Below, piece by piece: positions 49,500-64,000 of a stretch of DNA of 64,000 bases (positions within the stretch are counted from its first letter, which is position 1; each line of letters opens with the position of its first letter). The DNA comes from Alphaproteobacteria bacterium (GTDB taxonomy: Bacteria; Pseudomonadota; Alphaproteobacteria; UBA6615), in assembly GCA_039980135.1 (NCBI GenBank), contig JBDXCV010000003.1, forward strand, positions 62,001 to 126,000, given 5' to 3'. The notes beneath the pieces were generated by a model. It was given only the letters and a program-made list of their open reading frames with translations, did not search any database and was not told the origin of the DNA. Position numbers and translations under genes: made by a program.

Positions 49500-49919
49500 C
49501 TACGCCGGCTTCGTGCTCAGCAGCGCCGACGCGACGCTGATGTATTTTCGGCCTGCCGTTTGTGCCGCCTCGACAAGCGCCGGAAATTCCAGATCATCGC
49601 GTGCCTGCGCCAGCTTGATCAGCATGGGCAGGTTGAGCCCGGCAATTACTTCGACAGGCCCGCCGTCAATCTTGGAATCCATCACCGAAATCGCCAGATT
49701 TGACGGCGTCCCGCCAAACATGTCCGTCAGGATCACGACCCCCATACCCCGTGCGACCCGCGTGGCAGCATCGACAATATCTTTCCTGCGTTGTTCCATG
49801 TCGTCATCGGCGTCGATGCAGACCGCCTCAATCTGTTCCTGCGGTCCGACGACATGTTCGAGGGCAGCAGCGAATTCTGCGGCCAGCCGGCCATGGGTCA
49901 CGAGCACTAATCCGATCAT
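49500..49919 (-). CDS. PTS EIIA component, mannose/fructose family
   Basis: A 139-residue EIIA of the ManX type. The phosphorylated His is His9 in MIGLVLVTHG; VVILTDMFGGTPSNLA is the conserved domain signature. It takes phosphate from HPr. No cognate EIIB/C is near, so it is probably a regulatory component, as in other alphaproteobacteria. It starts inside the rapZ stop (ATGA) and is six bases from HPr. Confidence 0.94.
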   Translation of the reverse strand: MIGLVLVTHGRLAAEFAAALEHVVGPQEQIEAVCIDADDDMEQRRKDIVDAATRVARGMGVVILTDMFGGTPSNLAISVMDSKIDGGPVEVIAGLNLPMLIKLAQARDDLEFPALVEAAQTAGRKYISVASALLSTKPA

Positions 49920-50860
49920 CTGGGGTCCTGGTCCGCGTTGAGGTCAAAAGACAATTCCCGGTGGCGCAGTTCGACATGGGTCATGCGTTCGGCAATCCAG
50001 TCGCGCAGGCGTTCGGCCACATAGACCGAACGGTGGCGTCCCCCGGTGCATCCGATCGCAATCGTCAGGTAGCTCTTGCCCTCTTCGTTGAAACGCGGAA
50101 GCAGGAGCGCCAGCAGGTCCGTCAGACGCGTAAAAAACCCGTCGAAATCCGGATCCGCCGCGACATGGGCACCGACCCCGTCATCCCGTCCGGTCAGCGG
50201 GCGGAGCGCCGGTTCATAGTGCGGATTACGCAGGAAACGAACATCGATGACCATATCGGCGTCCCGCGGCACACCGTTACGGTACGAAAAGGACGTGACC
50301 AGCACATTCGCCTCGCCCGTCGCCGCACCCATCATGCGGTCACGCAACAATCGCGCGAACTCGTGAATATTCGAGTGACTGGTGTCGATAATAAAATCTG
50401 CCGCCTCGCGTAGCGGCGCCAACAGCCGCCGCTCGGCGGCGATGCCGTCGGCGAGTGGCCGGTCGCTGGCCATGGGATGCACCCGGCGGGTTTCGGTGTA
50501 GCGCCGCTCGATCACATCATTGGCGCTGTCGAGGAAAAGCATCTCGACCGGGATATCAACCGCCGCCCGCAGGGCCGCGATTTCCTGCGCAAACCTGTCT
50601 GCGTTGAAGTCCCGTGTGCGCACATCGATCCCGATCGCCAGGCCACGGCCGGCGGCGGGGCCCTGACGCACCAGGGTCGCCATCAAGCGGACGGGTAAAT
50701 TATCGACGGCCTCGCAATCCATGTCCTCGAGTGCCTTGAGCGCGGTTGTCCGTCCCGCACCCGACAGACCCGTGACCACCAGCACCCGGCCCGCCAATGA
50801 CAAGGGCGCGACGGCGCTCTCATCCGCGTCATGTTTCTCGCTCTGGTTCGGTCCGGACAT
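49916..50860 (-). CDS. rapZ: RNase adapter protein RapZ
   Basis: A 314-residue nucleotide-binding protein. The Walker A is GLSGAGRTT (residues 31-39), with Arg instead of the usual Lys, a variant also common in alphaproteobacterial relatives. LKALEDMDCEAVDNLPVRLM, GIDVRTRDF and the C-terminal IGCTGGRHRSVYVAERL are family signatures. In enterics it guides GlmZ to RNase E; the alphaproteobacterial role is less clear. It lies between hprK and the EIIA gene. Confidence 0.95.
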   Translation of the reverse strand: MSGPNQSEKHDADESAVAPLSLAGRVLVVTGLSGAGRTTALKALEDMDCEAVDNLPVRLMATLVRQGPAAGRGLAIGIDVRTRDFNADRFAQEIAALRAAVDIPVEMLFLDSANDVIERRYTETRRVHPMASDRPLADGIAAERRLLAPLREAADFIIDTSHSNIHEFARLLRDRMMGAATGEANVLVTSFSYRNGVPRDADMVIDVRFLRNPHYEPALRPLTGRDDGVGAHVAADPDFDGFFTRLTDLLALLLPRFNEEGKSYLTIAIGCTGGRHRSVYVAERLRDWIAERMTHVELRHRELSFDLNADQDPR

Positions 50861-50874
50861 GTCGGCTCAACAGC

Positions 50875-51339
50875 TCAGTTTCGCGCGCCGACTATACCGT
50901 GACGCACGGCCACAACGCCAAGCCGAAGCTTGGCGGGTGTCGACACTTCGAACGGCGCCACGGCGAGCAATTGCAGCTCGACACCCGCGAGACATGTGAA
51001 TCGCGGTTCGGGATGGCGCGCCACCAGCTCGGGCGCCACGAGATCACAGACCAGCATGACCGGGACCGTATCCAGATATGGCAAGTCCACTATGCCCACA
51101 CCGCGCACTTCGATCTTGCCCGCAAGCGACCGCGGCGCATTTGCCATCACCACGCCGTCGACGCTGCGCAGTTCCGTCTGGTCATCGGCCACCAATCGTG
51201 CCCCGCCGTCGATCAGGCGAAGTGCGAGGTCCGATTTGCCGGCACCGGACGAGCCGCGCAACAGCAAACCCGCCCAGCCACCGCCGGCATCGGGCAGCGC
51301 CACACAGGTCGCGTGAACACGAATATTACATTCCGTCAT
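50875..51339 (-). CDS. hprK: HPr kinase/phosphorylase, short C-terminal form
   Basis: A 154-residue protein with only the kinase/phosphorylase domain, the usual alphaproteobacterial length. Walker A is RGSSGAGKSDLALRLI near residues 28-42, then ADDQTEL, and IEVRGVGIVDLPYL with the HprK signature. It phosphorylates Ser50 of HPr. It heads the minus-strand PTS unit. In most alphaproteobacteria its neighbour upstream is the ChvG kinase gene; here that place is taken by the accessory block. Confidence 0.93.
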   Translation of the reverse strand: MTECNIRVHATCVALPDAGGGWAGLLLRGSSGAGKSDLALRLIDGGARLVADDQTELRSVDGVVMANAPRSLAGKIEVRGVGIVDLPYLDTVPVMLVCDLVAPELVARHPEPRFTCLAGVELQLLAVAPFEVSTPAKLRLGVVAVRHGIVGARN

Positions 51340-51536
51340 GGTTCCTGCCCCGGCTCCGCTGCGCACCATGCGCAATCCGTTCTAGCGCGCCCTTGCACAG
51401 GTCTCCACAAGCGCGTGTGAGTTTTGCCCCGGCGGAACAGCCGGGCGCCGCCACACATGCTATATCAACAACGCAGCAGGGCCGGTGACCGGTCGGACAA
51501 CCATGTTTGGAAATGCGCGCAGCGGAGAGAATCGAA

Positions 51537-52658
51537 ATGAGCGACGAGAAGAAAACTATCGGCCTGGCAGTCATCGGCTGCGGCACGATCGGCCGCATTC
51601 GTGCGGAGTTTGCACGCGACTATCCGGGCATCGGCTGGCTCGGTCTTTGCGACATCAAGGACGATCTGCGCGCCAAGCTCGCCGCCGACACGAATGCCGA
51701 CTTCCACACCGCCAGTTTCGAGGAACTGATCAAGCGACCCGAAGTCGACGCTGTGATCATCGCGACGGACGAGAATCATCACATGGCCCCGACCATCATG
51801 TCGGCGGAAGCGGGCCACGCGCTGTTCATCGAGAAACCGCTGGCGACGGACGCGCGTGAATCTCTCGCTGTCCTCCAATCGATCGAAGCCAACGGCGTCG
51901 ATGCCGTGGTCGGCTATACCCAGCGGTTCCGCCGCCGGTTCCTGACGGTCAAGGAGCGGCTCGTCACCGGCCAGATCGGCGAAGTCACCGGCGTCGTGAC
52001 CCGCGCAATCATGAACCGCATGGTCCCCATCGCCACGGTGGCCCGCACGAACCAGCGCGAGAACCTGACGCCGATGGTCGTGTCGGGCACCCATGCGCTC
52101 GACATGTGCATGTGGCTGATGGAGGGCAAGACCCCGGTCTCGCTCTATGCCCAGTCCAACGACAAGGCGATGGCGCAATACGGCACCAAGGATTCCACCT
52201 TCGGCATCTTCACTATGGATGACGGCACCATGTTCTCGATGAACATCTCCTGGGCGGCACCTGTCATCTGGCCGGGCGCCGTCTACGGGCTGGAGATTGG
52301 CATCATCGGCGACAAGGGCGTGATCGATATCGAGGATACCCACCGCGACTTGATCATCGCCTCCGAGATCCCCCAGGGTGCGGGCTACGCGCCGGACGGG
52401 TTCACCCCGGAATTCCAGCGCCATGTGGATTTCATGACCAGCTACCCGCCGGGAGACATCTATAACGGCCAGCTCTGGGGTCCGATGCGCGAGGAGACCT
52501 TCTCCTGGTATCAGCGCCTGTGCGCCGGCCTCGATACGCCCCACGCCACGGCCCAGGACGGCCACCGCAACCTCATGCTGACCATGGCCATGGACAAGTC
52601 CTCGAAGCTCGGCGAACGAATCGACCTGCCGCTCGAAATCGACGACTATTACGACTGA
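51537..52658 (+). CDS. Gfo/Idh/MocA family oxidoreductase (first copy)
   Basis: A 373-residue NAD(P)-dependent dehydrogenase. The Rossmann motif is IGCGTIG (residues 13-19), and Lys100 in FIEKPLA is the catalytic lysine of the EKP motif. GYTQRFRRRFLTVKERL and the C-terminal SMNISWAAPV segment match the substrate domain. The start at 51537 follows GGAGAG. It resembles the dehydrogenase at 61873-62931 in several blocks, so the two are paralogues at opposite ends of the accessory block. Members oxidise or reduce sugars, inositols and related polyols. Confidence 0.9.
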   Translation: MSDEKKTIGLAVIGCGTIGRIRAEFARDYPGIGWLGLCDIKDDLRAKLAADTNADFHTASFEELIKRPEVDAVIIATDENHHMAPTIMSAEAGHALFIEKPLATDARESLAVLQSIEANGVDAVVGYTQRFRRRFLTVKERLVTGQIGEVTGVVTRAIMNRMVPIATVARTNQRENLTPMVVSGTHALDMCMWLMEGKTPVSLYAQSNDKAMAQYGTKDSTFGIFTMDDGTMFSMNISWAAPVIWPGAVYGLEIGIIGDKGVIDIEDTHRDLIIASEIPQGAGYAPDGFTPEFQRHVDFMTSYPPGDIYNGQLWGPMREETFSWYQRLCAGLDTPHATAQDGHRNLMLTMAMDKSSKLGERIDLPLEIDDYYD

Positions 52659-52700
52659 CGCGCGCCGGGCGCGCACGGTCATGCAACGAGGGGATAAACC

Positions 52701-53096
52701 ATGTCGGATACGCTAACCTGGGAGCATATGCTCGAGCGGACAAGCGCGGGCCCGATGCTCGGCAAACCGCTTTTCGTCGTATTCACCTACCCGGCCGACG
52801 GCATGGGGCCGATCCAGGAAAACATCAAGGAGCATCTCGCCTATCAGCGGATGCTCGAGGATACCGGCGTGATGTTCGCCGCCGGCCCGATGGGCGATCG
52901 CGGCGGCGAGACATGGTCGGGCTCCGGCATGGTCGTGATCCGCGCGGAGAACTTCGCCGAGGCCGAGAAAATCGCGGCCACCGATCCGATGCATGCCGCC
53001 GGCGCGCGCAATTTCCATGTGCAACCCTGGATCGTCAATGAAGGCACGATCACGGTAAAAGTCGGCTTCGCCTCGGGTTCGCGCGAGATCGACTAA
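52701..53096 (+). CDS. YciI-family protein
   Basis: A 131-residue protein with a YciI-like barrel: PLFVVFTYPADG, EHLAYQRMLEDTGVMFAAGPMGD, an AENFAEAEKIAATDPMHAAGARNF helix with the conserved Asp and His of the family, and a NFHVQPWIVNEG strand. The ends carry unrelated extensions. It lies 42 bases after the first dehydrogenase and probably shares its transcript. Confidence 0.85.
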   Translation: MSDTLTWEHMLERTSAGPMLGKPLFVVFTYPADGMGPIQENIKEHLAYQRMLEDTGVMFAAGPMGDRGGETWSGSGMVVIRAENFAEAEKIAATDPMHAAGARNFHVQPWIVNEGTITVKVGFASGSREID

Positions 53097-53228
53097 ACGC
53101 CTTGGCAACCGGGCTCTCGATTGACGCCCACACAACCGACAACGTATTAAAAAGGGCTGGCGTCACGCGTTTCCCCCAACAGGGAGCCCCCGTTTCCGCG
53201 CGACCACAGCGGGGAGGCGGAACGGCAC

Positions 53229-54020
53229 ATGGCAAAGAAGGCCAAGTCCGAAATCAAGGCAAAGCCGGCTACAGCCAAGCCGGGCAAAACCAGGGCGCCA
53301 CGTCTAAAACGGGCGCCGGGCAAACCGCTCTACGCCCAGGTCGAGGAGGTCATCCGCCGCCGGCTGATCGACAATTACTGGAAACCTGGCGATGTGCTGC
53401 CGAGCGAGTTCGATCTCGCGCGCGAATTGTCCGTGAGCCAGGGCACGGTCCGCAAGGCGCTCAACGACATGGTGGCCGAGAATCTTCTCGAACGCCGCCA
53501 GGGTCGCGGGACCTTCGTCTCCGAATATACCGAGCGGCGCGCCCTGTTCTTGTATTTCAACTTGATCGGCCCCGACGGAGAACGGGCCATGCCGGTAAGC
53601 CGCGTTCTCGCCTGCGAGCAACGCCCGGCGACCGAGCATGAGCGCGATCGTCTGCTGCTCAGTCCGGGCGCGAATGTGATCGCGCTCCATCGGGTGCGCT
53701 CGCTGGACAACGATCCCGCGATCGTCGAGCGCCTCACGCTGCCCCAGGAGCTTTTCCCGGGCCTGGGCGGTGACGCGAAGCTGCCGGAGAATCTCTATCG
53801 CTTTTTCCAGGGCGAGTATGGTGTCACGGTTGCCAAGGCCGATGAATCCGTGCGTGCCGTGGCGGCCGACCCGCTGGAGGCCCAGCTTCTGGGGGTGATG
53901 CCCGACGCGCCCCTCCTCGAGATTGACCGGGTCGCCGTGACCATCGACGGACGCCCGATCGAATGGCGGGTCAGCCGCTGCAACACCACCAACTACAGTT
54001 ACGTCGCCGAACGGGGCTGA
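53229..54020 (+). CDS. GntR-family regulator, HutC type (UTRA ligand domain)
   Basis: A 263-residue regulator with a Lys/Ala-rich N-terminal tail (1-30), a winged-helix DNA-binding domain (33-98; WKPGDVLPSEFDLARELSVS and TVRKALNDMVAENLL) and a C-terminal UTRA domain (about 112-260). UTRA domains bind small molecules such as histidine-derived, phosphonate or sugar effectors. The only regulator gene in the accessory block, so it is the best candidate to bind the palindromes at 59583-59598 and 62986-62999. Confidence 0.92.
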   Translation: MAKKAKSEIKAKPATAKPGKTRAPRLKRAPGKPLYAQVEEVIRRRLIDNYWKPGDVLPSEFDLARELSVSQGTVRKALNDMVAENLLERRQGRGTFVSEYTERRALFLYFNLIGPDGERAMPVSRVLACEQRPATEHERDRLLLSPGANVIALHRVRSLDNDPAIVERLTLPQELFPGLGGDAKLPENLYRFFQGEYGVTVAKADESVRAVAADPLEAQLLGVMPDAPLLEIDRVAVTIDGRPIEWRVSRCNTTNYSYVAERG

Positions 54021-54053
54021 CCGGCCCCGGCACAAACCAATCGGAGAAAAATC

Positions 54054-54941
54054 ATGACCACACCGGAAATCGGTGTCATCGGGCTCGGCAATATGGGCCG
54101 GGGAATCGCCGACAATTTCGCCAAGGCCGGTCACGCGACCGCCGTTTGGGACGTCAGCGCGGACGCGCGCGCCCCGTTCGAGGCGCGTTCGGACATAATT
54201 GTCATGTCGCCGGGCGAGATGGCCGCAGCAGGCGCCATGATGGTCTATGTGGTCCCCGCCACGCCGGAAATCGAGAGTTCCTTCGAAGGCCCCGACGGGG
54301 TGCTTGCCATGACCGGCGAAGGCACCATCATTTTCGACCTGACCACGTCCTTTCCCGAAGACACCGAGCGGATCGCAGCCCGCGCGGCCGAACACGGCAT
54401 CACCTATCTGGATGCGGCGATGAGCGGCGGGGCCACGGGTGCGGATGCCGGCGCGCTGACCCTGATGGTCGGCGGCGACGAAGCCACGTTCGAGGCCTGC
54501 CGTCCGAAGCTCGACGCGATCGCCGACAATCTTTTCTATCTGGGGGATGTGGGTTCGGGTCATGCCATGAAACTGATCCACAACATGGTGGTCCATGCGG
54601 TCTTCCTGACCACCTGCGAGGCCGGCCGCATGGCGGAGCGCGCCGGACTCAAGCTCGCGGACATGATCGACGTGTTCAATGTTTCGAACGCGCGCAGCTA
54701 CGCGACGGAGGCACGCTTCCCGAAGCATATCCTGTCGGAGAAGTGGGACGCGCGCTCGCGGGTATACAATCTGAACAAGGATCTGGGGATGGCCGTGCGC
54801 TTGGCCGAGAGTCTCGGCATGGACGCGCGCTACGCGAAGGAGACCAGCGCGTTCCTCAACAAGGCCATCGACCGCGGCATGGCGGAAGATGATTACAGCC
54901 TGCTATATCCGGTCTTCGACGAGATCCGCGAGACAGAATAA
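54054..54941 (+). CDS. NAD(P)-dependent beta-hydroxyacid dehydrogenase (3-hydroxyisobutyrate dehydrogenase-like)
   Basis: A 295-residue protein: Rossmann motif GLGNMG (10-15), AAMSGGATGADAGALTLMVGG (substrate side), and catalytic Lys173 in GSGHAMKLIHN. It is close to the 3-hydroxyisobutyrate/tartronate semialdehyde reductase group. It follows the GntR gene by 33 bases and is probably cotranscribed. It converges with the TRAP-type gene, with 22 bases between them. Substrate unknown, likely a 3-hydroxy acid. Confidence 0.9.
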   Translation: MTTPEIGVIGLGNMGRGIADNFAKAGHATAVWDVSADARAPFEARSDIIVMSPGEMAAAGAMMVYVVPATPEIESSFEGPDGVLAMTGEGTIIFDLTTSFPEDTERIAARAAEHGITYLDAAMSGGATGADAGALTLMVGGDEATFEACRPKLDAIADNLFYLGDVGSGHAMKLIHNMVVHAVFLTTCEAGRMAERAGLKLADMIDVFNVSNARSYATEARFPKHILSEKWDARSRVYNLNKDLGMAVRLAESLGMDARYAKETSAFLNKAIDRGMAEDDYSLLYPVFDEIRETE

Positions 54942-54963
54942 CGGCCAGGCCGATCAGCCGCCG

Positions 54964-55887
54964 CTATCCCTGCGGCAGATACTCGAACAGATCGTCGCGG
55001 AAACGCCGCATCGTGCGCTCGGTGACCGGGCGCACCGCTTCGACGAAGGCCGCGCGCTCGTCTTCGGACAAGTCGATAAGCTCGTTACCGGCGTCGGCCA
55101 GCTTGACCGCGATCTCCTCGTCGTCGCCCGCCGCGAAACCGCGCTGGGCCGGCGTCGCCGCCGCCAATGCCGCCTCGACCGCCGCCCTGACGTCATCGGG
55201 CCAGCCATCCCAGGTCGCCTTGTGGGCGAGCACCACGCACGGACCGAAGAAATGCCCCGACCGTGTGATCCAGCGATGCTGCTCGTGGATCGCGAAATTG
55301 AAGGTGTTGGTCAGCGGGTTCTCCTGCGCATCGACCGTGCCGTCCGCACACGCGCCCGGCAGGTCGGCCACATCGAGGGGCACCGGTTCGAAGCCCATGG
55401 CCGCGAAACTCTCCTGCTGCAATTCGCTGAACAGCGTGCGGATCTTGAGACCCTCGCAGTCTTCGGGCGTGTGGATCGGCCGGATGCCGTTCGAGAAATG
55501 CCGGAAGCCGTTGTCCCACCAGGCGACGATGCGGAAGTCCGCCGCCTCGGCCATCTTGTCCATGATCAGCCGGCCCAGGGGGCCATCGAGCATTGCATAG
55601 GCCTGCACCCGGTCGCGGATCAGGAAGGGCAGATCGAACAGCGCGATCTCCGGCACCTTGTCGGCCAGATAGCTCGACGAGAAATAACAGAGCGTGGTCT
55701 CGCCGGTCGCCACCATGTCGAGCAGGTCGGCCGCCTTGCGGCCCTGCTCGGTCACGTTGAGGACATGCTCGAATGCGACCCGGTCGCCGAGCGACGCGGA
55801 CAGGCTTTCGGCAAACACCCCGACCGCCCGGTTGTGCACCGAGCGTGGCCCCTGATAGCCGGAAAAACAGATCTCGAACTCAGCCAT
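54964..55887 (-). CDS. TRAP/DctP-type substrate-binding protein lacking a signal peptide
   Basis: A 307-residue protein with the DctP fold: EGLKIRTLFSELQQESFAAMG, ADGTVDAQENPLTNTF and an RFFGPCVVLAHKATW-like segment with the conserved Arg and Asn ligand region. The N-terminus is MAEFEICFSGYQGP, directly the first strand, with no hydrophobic leader, and the preceding gene ends five bases upstream, so no signal-bearing start exists. No DctQ or DctM gene is in the window. It may act in the cytoplasm as a ligand sensor or have lost function. Confidence 0.82.
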   Translation of the reverse strand: MAEFEICFSGYQGPRSVHNRAVGVFAESLSASLGDRVAFEHVLNVTEQGRKAADLLDMVATGETTLCYFSSSYLADKVPEIALFDLPFLIRDRVQAYAMLDGPLGRLIMDKMAEAADFRIVAWWDNGFRHFSNGIRPIHTPEDCEGLKIRTLFSELQQESFAAMGFEPVPLDVADLPGACADGTVDAQENPLTNTFNFAIHEQHRWITRSGHFFGPCVVLAHKATWDGWPDDVRAAVEAALAAATPAQRGFAAGDDEEIAVKLADAGNELIDLSEDERAAFVEAVRPVTERTMRRFRDDLFEYLPQG

Positions 55888-55892
55888 GGTGC

Positions 55893-56651
55893 CTATTCCG
55901 CCGCTTCTTCAACCGGTGGCCAAATACGCTCACCCACAGTTGGCGATCCGGGCGTGTGCATCGTGTAGCGGATGACACGGCCGGTCCATTCATTCTCGTC
56001 GAGTGCGAGGGCTTCATGGGGCTCCTCGAAATTCTCGAGTCGGGCCTGGAGCGAGGTGAATTCATACATCACCGAGTATTTGGCCCAGCCGGCGAGCGAG
56101 ACCATCACCCGCGCGGCGATGCAGCCCGGCATCCGCGCCATGGCGGGCAGGCGATACTGCGCGTACCACTGGCCGACATCAAACTCATCGGCGAGTGTCT
56201 TCGTGCGGAAGCTGCCCATCTGGATCGCCGGCCCCGGGGTCGTGCCCGCCGGGCGCAGTCCCATTTCCGGGCCGTCGATGCGCGCGAAAGTCGAGAATAT
56301 GCACGGGCGTATACCCTGGCGCAGATCGAGCATCTTGCGCGCCTCACCGGTTAACGCATTCTGGTCGTCGATTACGCTCGTCGGGGCGAGAAGCGTCCAG
56401 GGTTCCGCCGCACCGGCCAGCATTAGGAACTGAGTGCCGGTACCGACACCCTCTATGCCTTCTGATTTGGGGAAATTGTCGCGGACCTTTTGCATGTCGG
56501 CGCCGCCGCCCTGGTTTTCATAATGGGCGACCCAATTCAGGCCGGGTTTCGCCTGCAATGCGGGAAGATAGTCGCTGTGGAGCCAGTCGAGATATTCGTC
56601 GCGGCCATCGTCCGGCAGGTCATACCAGGTTGCCCAAATTCCACGGTCCAT
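55893..56651 (-). CDS. Duplicated dimeric alpha-beta-barrel (EthD/Dabb-like) protein
   Basis: A 252-residue protein I do not recognise as a named family. Two similar halves are visible: one begins GIWATWYDLPDDGRDEYLDW and the other begins MGSFRTKTLADEFDVGQWYA. In each, a strand is followed by a W-containing helix and an LPALQAKPG or LPAMARMPG turn. This looks like a duplicated ferredoxin-like barrel of the EthD/stress-response type. It is in the minus-strand unit between an MBL-fold gene and the TRAP-type gene. Function unknown. Confidence 0.65.
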   Translation of the reverse strand: MDRGIWATWYDLPDDGRDEYLDWLHSDYLPALQAKPGLNWVAHYENQGGGADMQKVRDNFPKSEGIEGVGTGTQFLMLAGAAEPWTLLAPTSVIDDQNALTGEARKMLDLRQGIRPCIFSTFARIDGPEMGLRPAGTTPGPAIQMGSFRTKTLADEFDVGQWYAQYRLPAMARMPGCIAARVMVSLAGWAKYSVMYEFTSLQARLENFEEPHEALALDENEWTGRVIRYTMHTPGSPTVGERIWPPVEEAAE

Positions 56652-56665
56652 CAGTTCAAACTCCT

Positions 56666-57487
56666 TCAGGTAACTTCAGGTTGATCGACATTGCTTATGT
56701 GACGGACGCTCAGTTCCGGGTCACCCTCGGCGATCAGCCCATCGCGCACTTTCGGCATGGTCAGGGCAAGATCGGTGACAGGCAACCCATGGGTCGGGGC
56801 GATGGTCTCGACACCCAGTTCGTCCAGCAATGCCTCGAGTTGATCGACATAGATGCGCATGTCGGTGGTGGTCGTCCAGTAAAGCGCGCGCTCGGCAAAT
56901 ACGGCAAGCACATCTTCGAGATCGAGCGACGTCGCCTCCTCGGCGACCAGGCCGCAATGACCATCCTGATGATAATGGCTGTAGGCGAGGCCATCGCCGG
57001 GAAACAGGCAATTCGCGCCCGTGTCGAAACCCCAGAGCGTGGTTCGCAGGTCTCTGATGACGGGCTCGACGGCGACGAGCTTCCGGCCGCCGAGGTCGAT
57101 CTCGTCGCCAACTTCCATCGACACCAGCCGGTCGGCATGCTGTGGAAACGCCAGGTGATAGTCCGCCACATCGCCATGCACGGTGATGTCGGGCCAGTTC
57201 TGAAACACCCGGCCGAGTCCACCCGAATGGGGGGTCTCCTGGTGGGTGACGAAAAGATATTTGAGCGGCGGGCGATCGGCCGTCAGAAGCTCGATCATCT
57301 GGCGCTCGATGGCAGGAAAGTCCTTCGGATGCCCCGTTTCGATCAACATCGAGGCGTCGTCGCCACACAGCAGGAAGGCGGCGTTGTATGAGTGATAGGA
57401 TTTTCCCTTGTGAAACTGCTCGAGGCAGTCCCCCAACCAGAACACGCCCCTCGCAATCTCGCGCGGCAACGGGTTTTCAATGTCCAT
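56666..57487 (-). CDS. Metallo-beta-lactamase-fold protein with flavodiiron-like metal motif
   Basis: A 273-residue MBL-fold protein. The metal loop is VTHQETPHSGG, with His82, Glu84 and His87; the HxExDH of flavodiiron proteins has Pro86 in place of Asp. LFPGDGLAY carries Asp165 as the bridging ligand, and APTHGLPV the C-terminal His. This fits a di-iron or reduced-metal oxidoreductase-like site rather than a classical zinc hydrolase. There is no flavodoxin domain, so it is a stand-alone domain. Its 3' neighbour is the duplicated barrel gene, its 5' neighbour a second MBL-fold gene. Confidence 0.8.
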   Translation of the reverse strand: MDIENPLPREIARGVFWLGDCLEQFHKGKSYHSYNAAFLLCGDDASMLIETGHPKDFPAIERQMIELLTADRPPLKYLFVTHQETPHSGGLGRVFQNWPDITVHGDVADYHLAFPQHADRLVSMEVGDEIDLGGRKLVAVEPVIRDLRTTLWGFDTGANCLFPGDGLAYSHYHQDGHCGLVAEEATSLDLEDVLAVFAERALYWTTTTDMRIYVDQLEALLDELGVETIAPTHGLPVTDLALTMPKVRDGLIAEGDPELSVRHISNVDQPEVT

Positions 57488-57498
57488 GACGGGTCTGC

Positions 57499-58371
57499 CT
57501 ATCTCACAAGACCGCGCGGCACATAGGCCGGCGCGACCCTGGTACGGTCGAGCTGATCGAGAACATCGTCAAGCACCTGGAACTGCCGATCAACATGCCG
57601 GCGTCCACGCAGAATCGTGCCGTACCCCGGCGCGATATTCTCTATCTCGAAGCGGTCATACACATCCGCCACGGCCTTGCGGATGGGCGTCAGGTTGCCG
57701 CCCTCGATCCACCAATAGCGCGTGTTCAGAAGGAACGATCGCACGAACGAATAATTCGTAACATCATCCGTGTCATTGTCGCCGAGCAACCAGGGGCCAT
57801 CCTCACGGTCACGCCACAAATGACTGAACATGTCCGACGAGAAGAGGGTCTTCGATGCCGCATCGTAGATCCACCGGGTGCTGATCAAGCGGATCGGCGC
57901 ATTCAGAACATCAACCTTCCGACCGGGACTCAGCGCAACCTGCGAATGGTCACCGCGCTCGATGATCGTGGTCTTGAGGATCGGATTGCGTTCCTCACCC
58001 CGCAGGGTTTCGAACTCGATCCATTCTTCGATATCCGGAACGTTGGAGAAACACTCGACAACATTGAAACGCCTGGCGATGGCCATCGCATTGGACACCG
58101 ACATGAATTCGTTGATGCGCAGGGGAAACAGGGAGAGCGGCGCATCCGGCTCGACCAGACTGCCGAGTTGTTCGAGAATCTCCGTCTCATGCGCGGTATA
58201 GCCTGTGTCGAGCAACATCGACCGGCCATCCGCCTTCAGGAGATAGCAGTTGGAGACCGAGTAGCCGCGTGCGGAATCCGGATAGGCGCTGATGCGCCCG
58301 TTCAGTTCGAACGCGTTTTGCAACGCATAGACGCTGCCGGGACTAAGCTCCGTAATACCGCTGAATGCCAT
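57499..58371 (-). CDS. Metallo-beta-lactamase-fold protein with most metal ligands replaced
   Basis: A 290-residue MBL-fold protein starting MAFSGITELSPGSVYALQNA, chosen where the first strand begins. The fold is clear (YLLKADGRSMLLDTGY near residue 43-58 and LFSSDMFSHLW at 177-187), but the HxHxDH loop is FPLRINEFMSVSN (82-94), with no His, and the C-terminal His is Tyr250 (APGYGTI). Asp180 remains. It is therefore probably a non-catalytic or altered-metal protein. It is the first gene of the minus-strand unit of four and has an inverted repeat upstream. Confidence 0.75.
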   Translation of the reverse strand: MAFSGITELSPGSVYALQNAFELNGRISAYPDSARGYSVSNCYLLKADGRSMLLDTGYTAHETEILEQLGSLVEPDAPLSLFPLRINEFMSVSNAMAIARRFNVVECFSNVPDIEEWIEFETLRGEERNPILKTTIIERGDHSQVALSPGRKVDVLNAPIRLISTRWIYDAASKTLFSSDMFSHLWRDREDGPWLLGDNDTDDVTNYSFVRSFLLNTRYWWIEGGNLTPIRKAVADVYDRFEIENIAPGYGTILRGRRHVDRQFQVLDDVLDQLDRTRVAPAYVPRGLVR

Positions 58372-58419
58372 GGCCTGTAGTCTTGTCGAATCTCTCGTGA
58401 TCACCGGCCACGACAGATG

Positions 58420-58435
58420 CACATGTGACCATGTG
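58420..58435. promoter_or_regulatory. Inverted repeat upstream of the MBL-fold operon
   Basis: CACATG-TGAC-CATGTG (58420-58425 and 58430-58435), a perfect 6-bp inverted repeat with a 4-base spacer, about 50 bases before the ATG of the first MBL-fold gene. It differs from the GTCTTATA palindromes, so a second regulator may act here. No matching regulator is identified. Confidence 0.4.
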
Positions 58436-58481
58436 GTTCATACCAAATCCAGCGCGCGCACCCAAACGGGGTTGAACAACG

Positions 58482-58513
58482 AAAAAGGCGGCGGCCCGAA
58501 AGAGACCGCCGCC
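58482..58513 (-). terminator. Rho-independent terminator of the TTT binding-protein transcript
   Basis: Stem GGCGGCGG (58487-58494) with CCGCCGCC (58506-58513) and five T on the minus strand at 58486-58482. It lies 27 bases after the binding-protein stop. Confidence 0.85.
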
Positions 58514-58540
58514 CATCGTCCGGAAATCCGGAAAGCCTAA

Positions 58541-59500
58541 TCAGCCGCTGGTCATGCTTTCGACGAGCGCCTTGTAGTCCTTGCTCTGTTCAACGCGGAC
58601 CTTCTCATAATCGTCACCCGACATGAGATTGGAATCCTCGCCCAGGCGCGAAATCAGGCGCTGGTAGGTCTTGTCTTCCTGCAGGGCGACAAAGGCCTCA
58701 CGGAGCTTGGCGAGCCGGTCGGCAGGGATGCCGCGCGGCGCCATGACGATCCGGTGCATCTCACCGATCTCACCCGGGTAGCCGAGCGAGGCGAATGTCG
58801 GCGGGCTGCCGAGCGTCGGTTCGTCGAGCACACAGCCCAGCGTGCGAACCTTGTCGCCCTGTCCGAGGATCGTCGAGGGGAACTGGAAGGTCACGTCCGC
58901 ATCACCCGCCAGCAATGCACGCAGCGAAGGACCGCCACCGCGATACGGCGTCATGTTGACCTGCACCTTGGCCCAGTTGAACAGCTGCGCGGCCGGCACC
59001 ATGGTCGCGCCCCACTGACCCGAATGGGAGAGCTCGACCTTGCCCGGATTCTGCTTGCCAAACTCGAACAGCGACTGCAGCGACTTAAACTGGGAATCGG
59101 ACCGCACGATGGCGCACATCCGAGCCGAGTTGGTCCGCGCGACGGTCACGAAATCCTCGGTCGTCTTGTACGGCAGCTCTTTCACATGCTGTTGCAGCTG
59201 GTCATAGAAGTTGTGGGTGAACAGCAAGGTGTACCCATCGGCCGGCGCACTCGCCGCCGCGGCCGTGCCCGTCTGCCCGCTCGCACCCGGCACGAGCTTC
59301 ACGATGACGGCCTGGCCGAGATACTGCGGCAGGATCGACGTGAGCACACGCGCATTCAGATCATGCGAACCACCAGCGCCAAGCGGCAGGATCATCGTGA
59401 TCGGCTTGTTCGGAAAATTGTCTTGCGCCAAGGCACTGCTGACACCCACACCGAGCATCAGGGCACCCAGGGCCACTGATTTCATAAATGTTCTACGCAT
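58541..59500 (-). CDS. Tripartite tricarboxylate transporter (TTT) substrate-binding protein
   Basis: A 319-residue Bug-family periplasmic protein (TctC type). The signal peptide spans residues 1-24 with cleavage near ALAQD. Then come FPNKPITMILPLGAGGSHDLNAR, VKLVPGASGQTGTAAAASA and LLAGDADVTFQFPSTI, all characteristic of the family. It binds small carboxylates and feeds TctA/TctB. GGAGGATC lies just before the ATG. It has its own candidate promoter and operator upstream, then follows tctA by about 150 bases. Confidence 0.93.
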   Translation of the reverse strand: MRRTFMKSVALGALMLGVGVSSALAQDNFPNKPITMILPLGAGGSHDLNARVLTSILPQYLGQAVIVKLVPGASGQTGTAAAASAPADGYTLLFTHNFYDQLQQHVKELPYKTTEDFVTVARTNSARMCAIVRSDSQFKSLQSLFEFGKQNPGKVELSHSGQWGATMVPAAQLFNWAKVQVNMTPYRGGGPSLRALLAGDADVTFQFPSTILGQGDKVRTLGCVLDEPTLGSPPTFASLGYPGEIGEMHRIVMAPRGIPADRLAKLREAFVALQEDKTYQRLISRLGEDSNLMSGDDYEKVRVEQSKDYKALVESMTSG

Positions 59501-59577
59501 ATGATCCTCCCTTGGGACTGCGTGGTTTGTTGGAACCGGGTCCGATGTTCTATCGGTATTGGCAAGATTCACCCGGG

Positions 59578-59606
59578 GAAATACTCTTGTATAAGACTAT
59601 CGACAA
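59578..59606 (-). promoter_or_regulatory. Candidate promoter with palindromic operator for the TTT binding-protein gene
   Basis: Minus strand: TTGTCG (59606-59601), 17-base spacer, TATTTC (59583-59578). The spacer holds AGTCTTATACAAGA, the complement of TCTTGTATAAGACT at 59585-59598, a near-palindrome. A repressor bound here would block RNA polymerase. It matches the palindrome before the second Gfo/Idh/MocA gene (62986-62999). Confidence 0.5.
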
Positions 59607-59654
59607 GACAGCATTGCGCGCAGGACATGTCAAGGAACCGCCGGCGCCAATCAG

Positions 59655-61190
59655 TTATTCCGGGGGCGCCAATGCACTCGCCTCGCGCTGCAACTTGCTC
59701 GACCGCCGCCACAGATACCAGGCGATCACCGGTGTCAGGATAATAATCACCAACGTGATCGGCCGTTCGAACGCGATGTAACCGAACAGATCGCCGCGTG
59801 ACAGGCTAAGGGTTTGCCCCACCGCACGTTCGATCTCCGGCCCCAGGATAAAGGCCATTGCCAGCGGCGCGACATCGAAACGGAACTTGCGCAAGACATA
59901 GCCGATCACGCCGAAAGCCCCGAGAATATAGAGGTCCGTCGGGTTGTTGCGGACCGCGAACACACCGGCGAAGGCAAACATGATGGTCAACGGCATCAGG
60001 ATCGATTTCGGGATGCGCACCACCCGCGCGAAGGCCGGAATCGTCAAATAGCCGACGATCACAAACAGGACATTTGCCAGCAGCATCGCCAGCAGTATGG
60101 CGAACACCTGCGGGCCCTGCTCGACCATCAACTCCGGCCCCGGACGCATGCCGACGGCGACGAAGGCACCCAGTAAAATTGCCGTGATGTTGTCGCCGGG
60201 AATGCCGAAGGTGAGCATGGGCACCAGGGTCGGCCCGTTGACCGCATTGTTCGCCGCCTCTGCCGCCGCGACCCCGTCCAGCTCGCCCTTGCCGTAACGC
60301 TCGGGATGTTTGGACGCGTTCTTCGCGGCCGCGTAACCAACAAACGCGGCGACCACCTGTCCGACACCGGGGATCATGCCGATGCTCGTGCCAATGACGG
60401 TCGAACGCGCGATCGTGCGCCCGCTGGCCTTGAATTCGGACCATTTCAACCGCTCGCCTTCGAGCGCCTTGGCGCCGGCCTTGATATAGGTGGCGGCGCG
60501 TTTCTCGATGGACAGCAACAGCTCGGAAAGCGCGAACAGGCCAATCAGCATCGGCAGCAAGCCAATCCCCGAGCGCAGCTCGAAGATCCCGAAGTCGAAC
60601 CGGGCCAGCGCGCCGATCGGATCCTGCCCGATCATCGCGACAAACAGGCCGATGCCCATCACCAGAAGGCCCTTCACGAAGGCACCGGAACCCGTCGCGG
60701 AGATGACAATCAGGCTGAGGAACAACACCGCGGCCAGTTCGGGCGGGCCGATGGCCAGCGCGATCAACGCGATGGGCACAATCGCGAAAATGGTCACGAG
60801 ATCGCTCGTGAAATCACCGGCCACAGACGAGAACAGCGCCATCTCGAGCGCCTTGCGGCCCTTGCCCTGTCGGGTCAGAGCCGGCCCGTCGAATGTCGTC
60901 GCGACTGCCGCACCGGTGCCGGGCATCGAGACCAGGATCGCCGGTACGCTGCCGCCGTATATGCCGCCCTTATAGATGCCCAGCAGGAACGGAATACCGA
61001 AGATCGGTGGCAAGAAAAACACGATGGGCAGCAGGATCGCCATCGCGGTCAGGGTTGTCAGGCCCGGAAGCGCCCCGACGAACATGCCCAGCAGCAGGCC
61101 GCCAATCATGTAGAGAACCGTCAGCAGGAACGTGTCGGGATTGAACAGAATTCCCGCGCCCTGAACCAGTGAACCAAATAACTCTTCCAT
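59655..61190 (-). CDS. tctA: Tripartite tricarboxylate transporter, TctA large membrane subunit
   Basis: A 511-residue membrane protein with about twelve helices. GLLLGMFVGALPGLTTLTAM near residue 33, LLGIYKGGIYGGSVPAILVS near 90, and the repeated GIGMIPGVGQVVAAFVGY and LTFGIPGDNITAILLGAF segments are the TctA signatures and its inverted-repeat halves. It imports the carboxylate presented by the binding protein, using a cation gradient. It lies in the tctB-tctA order. Confidence 0.95.
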   Translation of the reverse strand: MEELFGSLVQGAGILFNPDTFLLTVLYMIGGLLLGMFVGALPGLTTLTAMAILLPIVFFLPPIFGIPFLLGIYKGGIYGGSVPAILVSMPGTGAAVATTFDGPALTRQGKGRKALEMALFSSVAGDFTSDLVTIFAIVPIALIALAIGPPELAAVLFLSLIVISATGSGAFVKGLLVMGIGLFVAMIGQDPIGALARFDFGIFELRSGIGLLPMLIGLFALSELLLSIEKRAATYIKAGAKALEGERLKWSEFKASGRTIARSTVIGTSIGMIPGVGQVVAAFVGYAAAKNASKHPERYGKGELDGVAAAEAANNAVNGPTLVPMLTFGIPGDNITAILLGAFVAVGMRPGPELMVEQGPQVFAILLAMLLANVLFVIVGYLTIPAFARVVRIPKSILMPLTIMFAFAGVFAVRNNPTDLYILGAFGVIGYVLRKFRFDVAPLAMAFILGPEIERAVGQTLSLSRGDLFGYIAFERPITLVIIILTPVIAWYLWRRSSKLQREASALAPPE

Positions 61191-61234
61191 AACGGATTAG
61201 CCTTTTATCGACCGGCCGTGGGTGCACGACATCG

Positions 61235-61759
61235 TTAGAACCATAGAAAATCTGGGAAGAACGGATCCTGCGGCAGGACCACCTTCAACCAGACCCGCAA
61301 GACATTGAAGAACAGCAGCGGCACCCCCGCGCTTACCAGGAGACCGAGCCAGATATTTCGGTTTCCGTAGAAGGTCGAGAGAACCAACAGCAAAATGAAT
61401 GACGAGATCACAAAACCGAGCCACGGCATGAGCAGGGCCATGACGATGAACCCGCCGATTGTGAACAACACACTCATGACCGCTTCGCCATCGAGCGCGG
61501 CCATGTGGTTGTCTTCAACGAGGGTCCGCGCCCGCCAGATCAGCCACACGCCCACGATCAGGAAAAACACGGCGACCATGCGGGGGAAGAAATCGGGATC
61601 GAGGCCGGAGGGTTTTTGCCCGAACAACAGGCGCGGCCGCTCGACCTGATCCGGCGTGATGATGAACAACACCACGCCAAAAACGATTGCGAACACGCCG
61701 AACGCGGTGTTGAAATTCATCCAGCCGCGCGGTGCCGGCTGATCATTTACATCCGTCAT
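61235..61759 (-). CDS. tctB: Tripartite tricarboxylate transporter, TctB small membrane subunit
   Basis: A 174-residue protein with four membrane helices, matching TctB in size and place. The first helix is FNTAFGVFAIVFGVVLFI, and a SGLDPDFFPRMVAVFFL segment precedes the second. The C-terminus is short. It follows the second Gfo/Idh/MocA gene by 113 bases and precedes tctA by 44. Confidence 0.88.
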   Translation of the reverse strand: MTDVNDQPAPRGWMNFNTAFGVFAIVFGVVLFIITPDQVERPRLLFGQKPSGLDPDFFPRMVAVFFLIVGVWLIWRARTLVEDNHMAALDGEAVMSVLFTIGGFIVMALLMPWLGFVISSFILLLVLSTFYGNRNIWLGLLVSAGVPLLFFNVLRVWLKVVLPQDPFFPDFLWF

Positions 61760-61872
61760 CCCGTTCTCCGTTCACCCGGCACAAGGCCGGCGTCAGTTCG
61801 CGAAGGGCGTCGGCTAACGATCAACCGCAACTGCCGAAGCGCATTTTGCTCCGGCACCTTCGTGCAGGCGAC

Positions 61873-62931
61873 TTATTCGGCGGCCAGTGGATTCGACGTG
61901 TCGTTGCGCGGCAGTGAAACCGGCTCGCCCCGCTCGGCCGAGAGATCGGCGGCGGTGTAGACATCCATCACCTCGCGCGCCTCGGAAGGTGTCACCATCA
62001 CCGGGCGGTCATAGACAATCGCCTCAATGAAGTAGTCCGTCTCCGCCTTCATCGGGCCGGCGAAAACATGATCGACGGGCTCACCGGGCATGGTCGACAT
62101 CGGATACTGGATGCCGTCCTTGACCGTGTTGAACTGTACTTCCTTGTGGGTGTCGTCGATGGTCAGCGCGCCATCCGTGCCGACGACCTCAATCCAGCAC
62201 TGGGAATAGTTCTTGTAGCCCAGCGGCAGGATCCAGCCGGCACCGACCGTGATGGTGGTGCCGTCGTCCATGGTCACCATGATCCATTGATGGTCGGGCG
62301 TGTCGCTGTTCTTGCTGAACAGCTTGCCGGACTGCTGCGAGTACACCCGGACGGGTTTGCGCGGACGCAGGCACCAGAGCAGGAAATCAAGATCATGGGT
62401 CGCCTCCATGGCGGCCGGTGACATCTTCGTGCGTCCGGTGATCTTGTCACCCAGCTCGCGGGTCACGTTGCGGCTGACCAGACAGGTCACCGGCTCGCCG
62501 ATCGATCCGTCTTTCAGCGCCTTGTGAACATAGGCGAATTTCGGCTTGAAGCGCTGGGAGTAACCAACCGACAGCTTCAGGTTCTTCTTCTCGGCCAGGC
62601 TGATGACCTCATCGGCCTCTTCCATGGTCGAGGATATGGGCTTCTCGACGAAGACATGCTTTCCGGCCAGGAGCGAATCCCGGATCATCGGATAGTGGGT
62701 TGTTTCCGGCGTCGCCGAGATGAAGATGGCATCCACCGAATCCTTCGCCAGGATCTGATGATAATCATCGGTCGTCGATGTCGGATTGGTCTCACCCGCA
62801 ACGACCGCGAGCCGTTCGCCGTCAATCTCGGCCAAGTGTAGTTCGTTCACATGGGGGTTGATCGCGCATGCATTTGCACGAATACCACCGCACCAGCCCG
62901 GGCCGATTACGCCCACATTAATCTGTTTCAT
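61873..62931 (-). CDS. Gfo/Idh/MocA family oxidoreductase (second copy)
   Basis: A 352-residue dehydrogenase: NVGVIGPGWCGG Rossmann turn and Lys97 in FVEKPIS of the EKP motif; GYSQRFKPKFAYVHKAL and the HDLDFLLWCLRPR segment place it with the family. It is the first gene of the minus-strand unit with tctB and tctA and is preceded by a perfect 14-base palindrome. It is paralogous to the copy at 51537-52658. Confidence 0.92.
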   Translation of the reverse strand: MKQINVGVIGPGWCGGIRANACAINPHVNELHLAEIDGERLAVVAGETNPTSTTDDYHQILAKDSVDAIFISATPETTHYPMIRDSLLAGKHVFVEKPISSTMEEADEVISLAEKKNLKLSVGYSQRFKPKFAYVHKALKDGSIGEPVTCLVSRNVTRELGDKITGRTKMSPAAMEATHDLDFLLWCLRPRKPVRVYSQQSGKLFSKNSDTPDHQWIMVTMDDGTTITVGAGWILPLGYKNYSQCWIEVVGTDGALTIDDTHKEVQFNTVKDGIQYPMSTMPGEPVDHVFAGPMKAETDYFIEAIVYDRPVMVTPSEAREVMDVYTAADLSAERGEPVSLPRNDTSNPLAAE

Positions 62932-62985
62932 GTTTCATCCCTGATACGCAGTGACCGGGGCACCGAGAACATAATTTGGGACCCA

Positions 62986-62999
62986 GTCTTATATAAGAC
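62986..62999. promoter_or_regulatory. Perfect palindromic operator upstream of the dehydrogenase-TTT unit
   Basis: GTCTTATATAAGAC (62986-62999) equals its own reverse complement. It lies 55 bases before the ATG of the second Gfo/Idh/MocA gene. It shares GTCTTATAYAAGA with the site at 59583-59598, and such CTTATAAG-type sites fit the HutC group of GntR regulators. Confidence 0.6.
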
Positions 63000-63082
63000 A
63001 ACGGCACAGTAGCCGCGCGACCGAAAATACACAAGTTGGCAAACAAGATGATAGGGCGAATTTCGCGCGGACCGTCCGGTCT

Positions 63083-64000
63083 CTAGGCGGCGGCAGGAAA
63101 CTCGACCACGAACCGGGCACCGGTGACCGGCCCGTCCGGGCGCCGGAGATTCTCGGCCCAGACCCGTCCGCCGGCCGCCTCTACGATCTGGCGTGAGATC
63201 GACAGGCCCAGGCCCGAATGGGTGCCGAATTTCTGGCTTTCCCCATCGGGACCCTCGGTCGGCCGGTCGGAATAGAACCTCTTGAAGATCGATTCCAGGT
63301 TCGCCTCGGGAATACCGGGTCCCTGGTCATCGACCGTCACCGTGATCAGGTCTCCGCCACGCCGCACGCGCCGGTCCGCCGCGACGATGATCTTGCCGTC
63401 CCGCGGGCTGAAGGATTGTGCGTTGGCAATGATGTTGCGGAATACCTGGCCGAGCCGGTCCTCAAACGCGCAGACCGACAGATCCACCCCCGGCTCGAGA
63501 TCGAGCACGATATCGGCGCTCGATGTTGCCGTCTGGATATCGACGAGCGCCTCCAGCGCCACACGCAAATCGATGATCGTCGGCGGGTCGCGGCTCAGTT
63601 CGGCATCCAGCCGCGAGGCATCCGAAATATCGCTGATTAGCCGGTCGAGGCGCGCGACATCGTCGAGGATGATCGACATCAACTTTTTCTGCTGCTCAGG
63701 GTCCTCGACGCGCGCGACGGTCTCGACGGCGCTGCGCAATGATGTCAGGGGGTTCTTGATCTCATGGGCGACATCGGCAGCGAATCGCTCGATCGCATCC
63801 ATGCGTTGCCAAAGCGCCTCGGTCATGGCCCGCAGGTCGCGGCCCAGGTCTCCGATCTCGTCACGCCGGCTGGCAAAGTCCGGCATGGCCACGTCCCGGC
63901 CCGACCCGCTGCGTACCCGCTGCGCCGCCAGGGCCAGCCGGCGCAACGGTCGGGCAATGGTCGCCGCCAGATACACCGACAGCAGGATCGTGACGGCGAA
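63083..64000 (-). CDS. chvG: ChvG/ExoS-type sensor histidine kinase (C-terminal part; start beyond window)
   Basis: The 3' part, about 305 residues, of a sensor kinase running off the right edge. A membrane helix (FAVTILLSVYLAATIA) leads into a HAMP domain, then HisKA with phosphoacceptor His in FAADVAHEIKNPLTSL (codon at 63766-63764), and HATPase_c with the NIIANAQSFSPRDG, DDQGPGIPE and GLGLSISRQI boxes. FAADVAHE-KNPLTSLRSAVET is the ChvG-type H-box. Its usual partner ChvI and the stimulus domain lie outside. In other alphaproteobacteria hprK is next to it. Confidence 0.85.
   Translation of the reverse strand, partial: FAVTILLSVYLAATIARPLRRLALAAQRVRSGSGRDVAMPDFASRRDEIGDLGRDLRAMTEALWQRMDAIERFAADVAHEIKNPLTSLRSAVETVARVEDPEQQKKLMSIILDDVARLDRLISDISDASRLDAELSRDPPTIIDLRVALEALVDIQTATSSADIVLDLEPGVDLSVCAFEDRLGQVFRNIIANAQSFSPRDGKIIVAADRRVRRGGDLITVTVDDQGPGIPEANLESIFKRFYSDRPTEGPDGESQKFGTHSGLGLSISRQIVEAAGGRVWAENLRRPDGPVTGARFVVEFPAAA

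Follow-up and report, generated by a model that had tools for sequence, protein, structure and literature searches.

A run of four minus-strand genes (58371-54964) lies in the alphaproteobacterial DNA analyzed here, a stretch of 64,000 nucleotides referred to below as the window. The genes encode two proteins of the metallo-beta-lactamase (MBL) fold, MBL1 and MBL2, a barrel protein, and a DctP-type solute-binding protein of the tripartite ATP-independent periplasmic (TRAP) class. Judged by gene content across related genomes, they are two separate pairs, MBL1-MBL2 and barrel-DctP, within a putative carboxylate-catabolism island, which probably imports and oxidizes an organic acid. The barrel-DctP pair is part of the core of this putative island, and further work is best directed at the MBL pair. 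The chances are about even that both pairs are functional units serving one organic-acid catabolism island, with MBL1 and MBL2 forming a heteromer.

The four genes are as follows.

57499..58371, minus strand: MBL1, an MBL-fold paralogue without the motif-2 metal-binding His (21-row alignment, hhalign with MBL2, profile matches)
56666..57487, minus strand: MBL2, a flavodiiron-type MBL domain without flavodoxin (Pfam, phmmer, profile, alignment)
55893..56651, minus strand: barrel protein, probably a duplicated ferredoxin-like (dimeric alpha/beta barrel) domain (sub-cut-off matches to ABM and DUF4286)
54964..55887, minus strand: DctP-type (TRAP) solute-binding protein without signal peptide (PF03480)

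The intergenic gaps are 11, 14 and 5 bases, in this order. A first-pass annotation, made from the sequence of the window alone, had described four open reading frames 5-15 bases apart and altered metal loops in the MBL proteins (H-x-E-x-P-H in one, no His in the other). The frames are present as described, with gaps of 5-14 bases, and the alignments confirm both loops, the first in MBL2 and the second in MBL1.

Composition of the Island and Independence of the Two Pairs

The barrel and DctP genes are found together in 12 of the 15 island loci, either adjacent or with one gene between them; locus L044 has DctP without the barrel, L026 ends after the barrel and L046 ends before it. The MBL pair lies inside eight of the 15 islands and is missing from seven. 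Six genomes of the host family carry the MBL pair at another site, either additionally or in place of an island copy (L036-L042); one genome (G008) yielded no MBL pair. No barrel or DctP gene is near the MBL pair in seven family loci, nor in the Nitrospinota-type loci or the plasmids read, and barrel-DctP occurs without adjoining MBL genes in seven family genomes. Since the two pairs occur separately, the four-gene run of the window is one arrangement of two independent units.

The co-occurrence on which the earlier reading depended extends beyond the window. The exact run MBL1-MBL2-barrel-DctP is found again in L045, and variants include a gene inserted before DctP (L028 and apparently L043), TctBAC genes of the tripartite tricarboxylate transporter inside the run (L027) and a run lacking the barrel (L044). 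The MBL pair shifts as a unit relative to TctBAC, being located upstream of it in L026 and L027 and downstream in the window. TctBAC, or TctA together with TctC, is seen in 7/15 island loci (the window, L026, L027, L104, L109, L113 and L118), L046 ending too soon to be scored.

Sequence and Predicted Metal Site of the MBL Pair

MBL2 is a superfamily member by Pfam (Lactamase_B, PF00753; 34.0 bits, cut-off 22.7), and MBL1 stays under the same cut-off with 17.2 bits. Profile-profile comparison by hhalign identifies the two as paralogues (228 columns, probability 99.1). MBL2 best resembles the MBL domain of flavodiiron proteins (phmmer E 4.7e-10; profile against FprA, 2ohh, E 2.3e-21), and the MBL1 profile reaches the same group (rubredoxin:oxygen oxidoreductase, E 1.2e-4). 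The closest solved relatives are flavodiiron proteins and the oxygen-binding diiron protein (ODP), both MBLs remaining below the cut-off of 27.2 for the ODP family PF19583 (23.8 and 23.4). In MBL2 (273 residues, MBL match ending at about residue 240) the Pfam scan found no flavodoxin domain, and NCBIfam gave no more than a marginal flavodoxin match (PRK05723, 12.7 bits against a cut-off of 204). The single-sequence PDB search with MBL1 returned one chance-level line and the PHROGs search no match. A marginal PADLOC assignment of MBL2 to Avs1a (E 5e-4, 60 residues) was rejected as general MBL similarity. AlphaFold2 models failed both for MBL1 (12 rows) and for the barrel protein (4 rows), with a pLDDT of 35.5 in each case.

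The motif loop of MBL2 reads H82-Q-E84-T-P86-H87, and residues H82, E84, P86, H87, R145, D146, D165 and H233 are unchanged in 21/21 aligned rows. Instead of the canonical diiron set (H-x-E-x-D-H, H, D, H), MBL2 has H-x-E-x-P-H, D, D, H; Pro takes the place of the Asp in the flavodiiron motif, and D146 that of the next His ligand. In MBL1 the loop is R85-x-x-E88, and both motif-2 His residues are gone in all 21 rows, throughout which R85 and D180 are invariant and E88 nearly so; D55 is kept in the MBL1 of the window. The His of the last motif is mostly Tyr in MBL1 (Y250 in the window) and is retained in the Rhodococcus copy (APGHG). The hydrolase motif H-x-H-x-D-H is present in neither protein.

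Distribution and Ancestry of the MBL Pair

Of the 24 host-family genomes, 14 contain MBL1, which also turned up in four of 385 genomes drawn across the class (all four belonging to the host family) and in metagenome-assembled genomes (MAGs) labelled Nitrospinota and in other MAGs. MBL2, whole or cut by a contig end, follows MBL1 in 22/22 loci from one alphaproteobacterial family and Nitrospinota-type MAGs. Plasmid records yielded seven further pairs with a degenerate partner, in Rhodococcus, Arthrobacter (two pairs), Agrobacterium and Roseomonas (three records), the second R. marmotae pair being assigned from gene order and annotation alone. The degenerate partners on plasmids are annotated as 'hypothetical protein' or left unannotated. 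Pairs with H-x-[ED]-x-P-H in both members occur in haloarchaea (Halalkalicoccus, Natrinema, Halocatena, Halobaculum) and in Paracoccus; that of H. halobium was judged from annotation only. In the 22 loci and the seven plasmid pairs with a degenerate partner, the spacing between the two genes is mostly 2-11 bases, or the genes overlap.

In a tree of 48 proteins, the 44 pair proteins are split from four flavodiiron proteins by a branch with 100/100 support. MBL1 and MBL2 form one clade each (both 100/100), and the inner order of the two clades is broadly similar; support for the deeper forks is weak, and the tree has some long end branches. Because each partner forms a single clade, loss of the motif-2 His looks like one event, and these residues were apparently lost once, on the MBL1 branch. 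No description of a paired MBL family of this kind was found in the open literature, which is weak evidence.

An Arthrobacter plasmid (L049, 8128-13804) carries two MBL1-MBL2 pairs in one stretch, accompanied by an oligopeptide-type ABC transporter (read from the sequence), an isochorismatase and a gene of the polysaccharide deacetylase family. Two plasmids of one Roseomonas marmotae strain (L050 and L132) share the same TctC / MBL2 / MBL1 stretch beside transposase genes.

Genes Adjoining the MBL Pair

TctC or complete tripartite tricarboxylate transporter genes adjoin the pair in the window, Roseomonas, Halalkalicoccus, Natrinema salinisoli and Halocatena, and a TAXI-type TRAP transporter is located near it in N. 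zhouii. Neighbours from aldolase and lyase families comprise HpcH/HpaI aldolase, phosphoenolpyruvate mutase/isocitrate lyase, dihydrodipicolinate synthase and 3-isopropylmalate dehydratase. Further neighbours are mandelate racemase/muconate-lactonizing enzyme, fumarylacetoacetate hydrolase, alpha/beta hydrolase, carboxymuconolactone decarboxylase-family proteins, flavin monooxygenases, a cyclase and isochorismatase. Since these families recur in carboxylic- and aromatic-acid degradation, a catabolic role of the pair is suggested.

Barrel Protein

The best family scores of the barrel protein are below cut-off (ABM 13.9 against 23.1, E 0.083; DUF4286 19.7 against 25.8, E 0.054). Its profile found no relative in the PDB, the plasmid sequences gave no match, and the protein is rare outside the host family. 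The first-pass annotation had called it a duplicated alpha-beta barrel. Duplication is plausible, as the halves share matching motifs (WLHxxYLPxxxxxPG / WYAQYRLPxxxxMPG), but it is unproven, the hhalign comparison of the halves reaching E 0.078 over 20 columns. A duplicated domain of the ferredoxin-like (dimeric alpha/beta barrel) type is the probable structure.

A barrel paralogue, 36% identical, is encoded on another contig of the same genome (C9; L106, 8294-9094); its neighbours are short-chain dehydrogenases and a zinc alcohol dehydrogenase, and no DctP was found adjoining it. A carboxymuconolactone decarboxylase-family gene lies between barrel and DctP in L103 (8620-9285, by Pfam), and a similar one, by reading, in L028 (10550-11215).

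DctP without Signal Peptide

The DctP protein of the window has 307 residues, and its match to PF03480 (193.1 bits, cut-off 23.4) starts at residue 13, which agrees with the earlier observation that it begins directly at the fold. An unannotated upstream start was looked for and none was found: an in-frame stop lies eight codons upstream of the sole start codon, and there is no hydrophobic stretch. No in-family relative with its start in view has a convincing signal peptide, export signals being judged by a hydropathy screen and not by SignalP; the weakest case is L096, of a second clade, which has a possible, moderately hydrophobic upstream start. Canonical DctP copies of the same genome (L001, L006) carry a signal peptide, as do seven of eight matches from outside the family, the eighth being incomplete at its start. 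By these comparisons the signal-less DctP is a lineage-specific subfamily, and the protein of the window seems to stay inside the cell. The absence of DctM nearby was noted correctly in the first pass: none of the 26 DctM matches of the genome falls within C3:62001-126000 (the window); DctQ was not searched for.

Residue R150 belongs to the GLKIRT motif of TRAP receptors, aligns with 4nq8 and is invariant in the rows aligned. By this motif, its position is presumably that of Arg147 in SiaP. The role of this conserved carboxylate-binding Arg in TRAP receptors has been described (PMC4646407). A cytosolic fold of this type is not new in itself, because other cytosolic proteins, of other functions, match solute-binding protein families in a survey of these proteins (PMC9602780). 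Nothing on signal-less DctP proteins was found in the open literature, again weak evidence.

A second signal-less DctP of the same genome (C15; L107, 5808-9885) directly follows a TAXI receptor and a fused DctM permease. Its clade is also present in other family genomes, and three copies contain one in-frame TAG. A signal-less DctP in L114 (1992-8529) directly adjoins oxamate carbamoyltransferase genes of the AllG/AllH type and a gene of the amino-acid-kinase family.

Layout of the Locus

Directly upstream of the four-gene run, on the same strand, are a complete tctB-tctA-tctC set and a Gfo/Idh/MocA-type dehydrogenase gene; the run faces a convergent group on the plus strand.

61873..62931, minus strand: Gfo/Idh/MocA-type dehydrogenase (domain-model matches)
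61235..61759, minus strand: TctB small permease (PF07331, 69.8 bits)
59655..61190, minus strand: TctA permease (PF01970, 435 bits)
58541..59509, minus strand: TctC, receptor of the tripartite tricarboxylate transporter (PF03401, 110.6 bits)
58514-58486, minus strand: terminator-like stem between tctC and MBL1 (12 pairs, 9 GC)
54054..54941, plus strand: 3-hydroxyisobutyrate-dehydrogenase-type (HIBDH-type) beta-hydroxyacid dehydrogenase, convergent to DctP
53229..54020, plus strand: GntR/UTRA regulator (domain-model match)
52701..53096, plus strand: YciI-domain protein (PF03795, 44 bits)
51507..52658, plus strand: second Gfo/Idh/MocA-type dehydrogenase (family-model match)

The TctBAC genes (58541-61759) had been overlooked in the first pass, which argued against transport. 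The stem at 58514-58486 is by far the strongest hairpin in a scan that is near chance overall (nine found, 6.8 expected), and its position points to a new transcript beginning with the four genes.

The island of the window (49916-63976) is flanked by a HAMP/HisKA sensor kinase gene and by hprK-rapZ, and in other genomes of the family, L044 and L045 among them, the island is again bordered by the kinase or the hprK-rapZ side. By reading of its sequence, the kinase resembles ChvG.

Proposed Function and Alternatives

The acid would be imported, in the window by TctABC, and its oxidation would fall to both dehydrogenases of the Gfo/Idh/MocA type and to that of the HIBDH type. The two-gene unit MBL1-MBL2 could give a soluble heteromer in which two MBL domains of flavodiiron type associate. 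MBL2 would carry the metal site, with H82, E84, D146, D165, H87 and H233 as predicted ligands; iron is likelier there than zinc, because the predicted site is carboxylate-rich. MBL1 would be a metal-less partner, which stabilizes MBL2 or completes its substrate pocket. The pair might act on an intermediate derived from a carboxylate, the first guess being hydrolysis of a lactone or ester before the aldolase or dehydrogenase steps. The signal-less DctP may bind the imported acid, or a carboxylate-bearing product of it, in the cytosol.

Several points weigh against this proposal. TctBAC was not seen in 7/15 islands (L028, L043, L044, L045, L103, L105 and L111). Adjacency of the MBL1 and MBL2 genes is no proof of a complex, for which the basis is co-occurrence, spacing and tree order. 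The hydrolase guess is weakened because the motif-2 Asp used by MBL hydrolases is lost, and the fold of MBL1 rests on profile comparison because its AlphaFold model failed. In Nitrospinota-type loci the pair stands beside housekeeping-like genes (dnaX-like and recR-like, by reading of the sequences). A single substrate class is uncertain because the neighbourhoods of the pair differ greatly between lineages, and such neighbour families might be as frequent beside any MBL gene.

The strongest rival to this proposal is oxygen chemistry, which is itself rather unlikely. MBL2 would then be a diiron oxidase, oxygenase or O2/NO-binding protein of flavodiiron ancestry, and MBL1 a structural or electron-delivery partner, as in Flv1/Flv3 and Flv2/Flv4, the cyanobacterial heterodimers that join a canonical with a non-canonical flavodiiron protein (PMC4390876). 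The nearest solved relatives agree with this, as does the carboxylate-rich site, a feature tied by a survey to the iron sites of MBL oxidoreductases (PMC7785958), and flavin monooxygenases or luciferase-like oxidoreductases are encoded close to several of the pairs. However, neither protein has a flavodoxin domain, no rubredoxin or reductase gene is common to the clusters read, and two canonical iron ligands are altered (D to P, H to D).

Alternatively, the signal-less DctP could be a decaying leftover of a lost TRAP transporter, devoid of binding function. The lack of DctM in the window, the DctP fold being ancestral to transport and the TAG-containing copies of the second clade fit this explanation. 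Nevertheless, decay is quite improbable, since 21 of the 24 family genomes have DctP matches, mostly as full-length frames, and the binding Arg is invariant in the aligned rows. The single intracellular sensing or scaffolding system proposed in the first-pass annotation, with DctP as ligand sensor, is very unlikely: a predicted cytosolic DctP with its Arg kept, the contiguity of the four genes in the window and L045 and the cytosolic matches to solute-binding families (PMC9602780) are compatible with it, but each pair occurs alone, no output or signalling domain was found in the four proteins at the E-values searched, the island already has a GntR regulator, and no result points specifically to sensing or scaffolding.

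Beyond two functional pairs with a heteromeric MBL1-MBL2, a wider proposal is advanced tentatively and with some doubt. MBL1-MBL2 may represent an undescribed, flavodiiron-related family of heteromeric metalloenzymes in Bacteria and haloarchaea; its ligand set (H-x-[ED]-x-P-H, D, D, H) would be new, and in one branch the partner would have turned into a pseudoenzyme. The signal-less DctP may likewise be an intracellular carboxylate carrier or enzyme subunit derived from a transporter receptor. If so, the pairs would provide small soluble prokaryotic models for partnerships of active and inactive MBL domains, both stages (both motifs intact, or one degenerate) surviving in living lineages. A TRAP receptor fold relocated to the cytosol would clearly exemplify a transport protein that has changed its compartment. 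The two cases would also help in annotating clusters for organic-acid catabolism from marine bacteria and haloarchaea, in which such genes are currently labelled 'MBL fold metallo-hydrolase', 'hypothetical protein' or 'TRAP transporter substrate-binding protein'.

Comparison with Known Systems

CPSF73/CPSF100, INTS11/INTS9 and long tRNase Z combine an active with an inactive MBL domain. Yeast Trz1 is such a case (PMC7785958). Unlike the window pair, these are RNA nucleases with extra domains, and they were absent among the sequence matches obtained here.

Flavodiiron proteins (FprA, ROO, NorV) share with the pair an MBL domain with H-x-E-x-(D/P)-H. In the heterodimers Flv1/Flv3 and Flv2/Flv4 reported from cyanobacteria, canonical ligands are present in just one of the two partners (PMC4390876). 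In contrast, the window pair has no flavodoxin or flavin-reductase domain, its motif Asp is Pro and the next His ligand is Asp. Its operon partners are catabolic, and the pair also occurs in haloarchaea, where both partners keep the motif. The oxygen-binding diiron proteins (PF19583) are likewise MBL-only relatives of flavodiiron proteins and both window MBLs match their model weakly; the differences are scores below the family cut-off, paired genes and the altered motif.

The DctP protein resembles TRAP receptors in its whole PF03480 domain and carboxylate-binding Arg, but it has neither a signal peptide nor a nearby DctM, is encoded with a barrel protein and, in the window, lies beside TctBAC. 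With tripartite tricarboxylate transporter clusters the island shares TctC, TctB and TctA together with dehydrogenases and a GntR regulator, and to this set it adds a predicted cytosolic DctP, the barrel protein and, in some genomes, the MBL pair.

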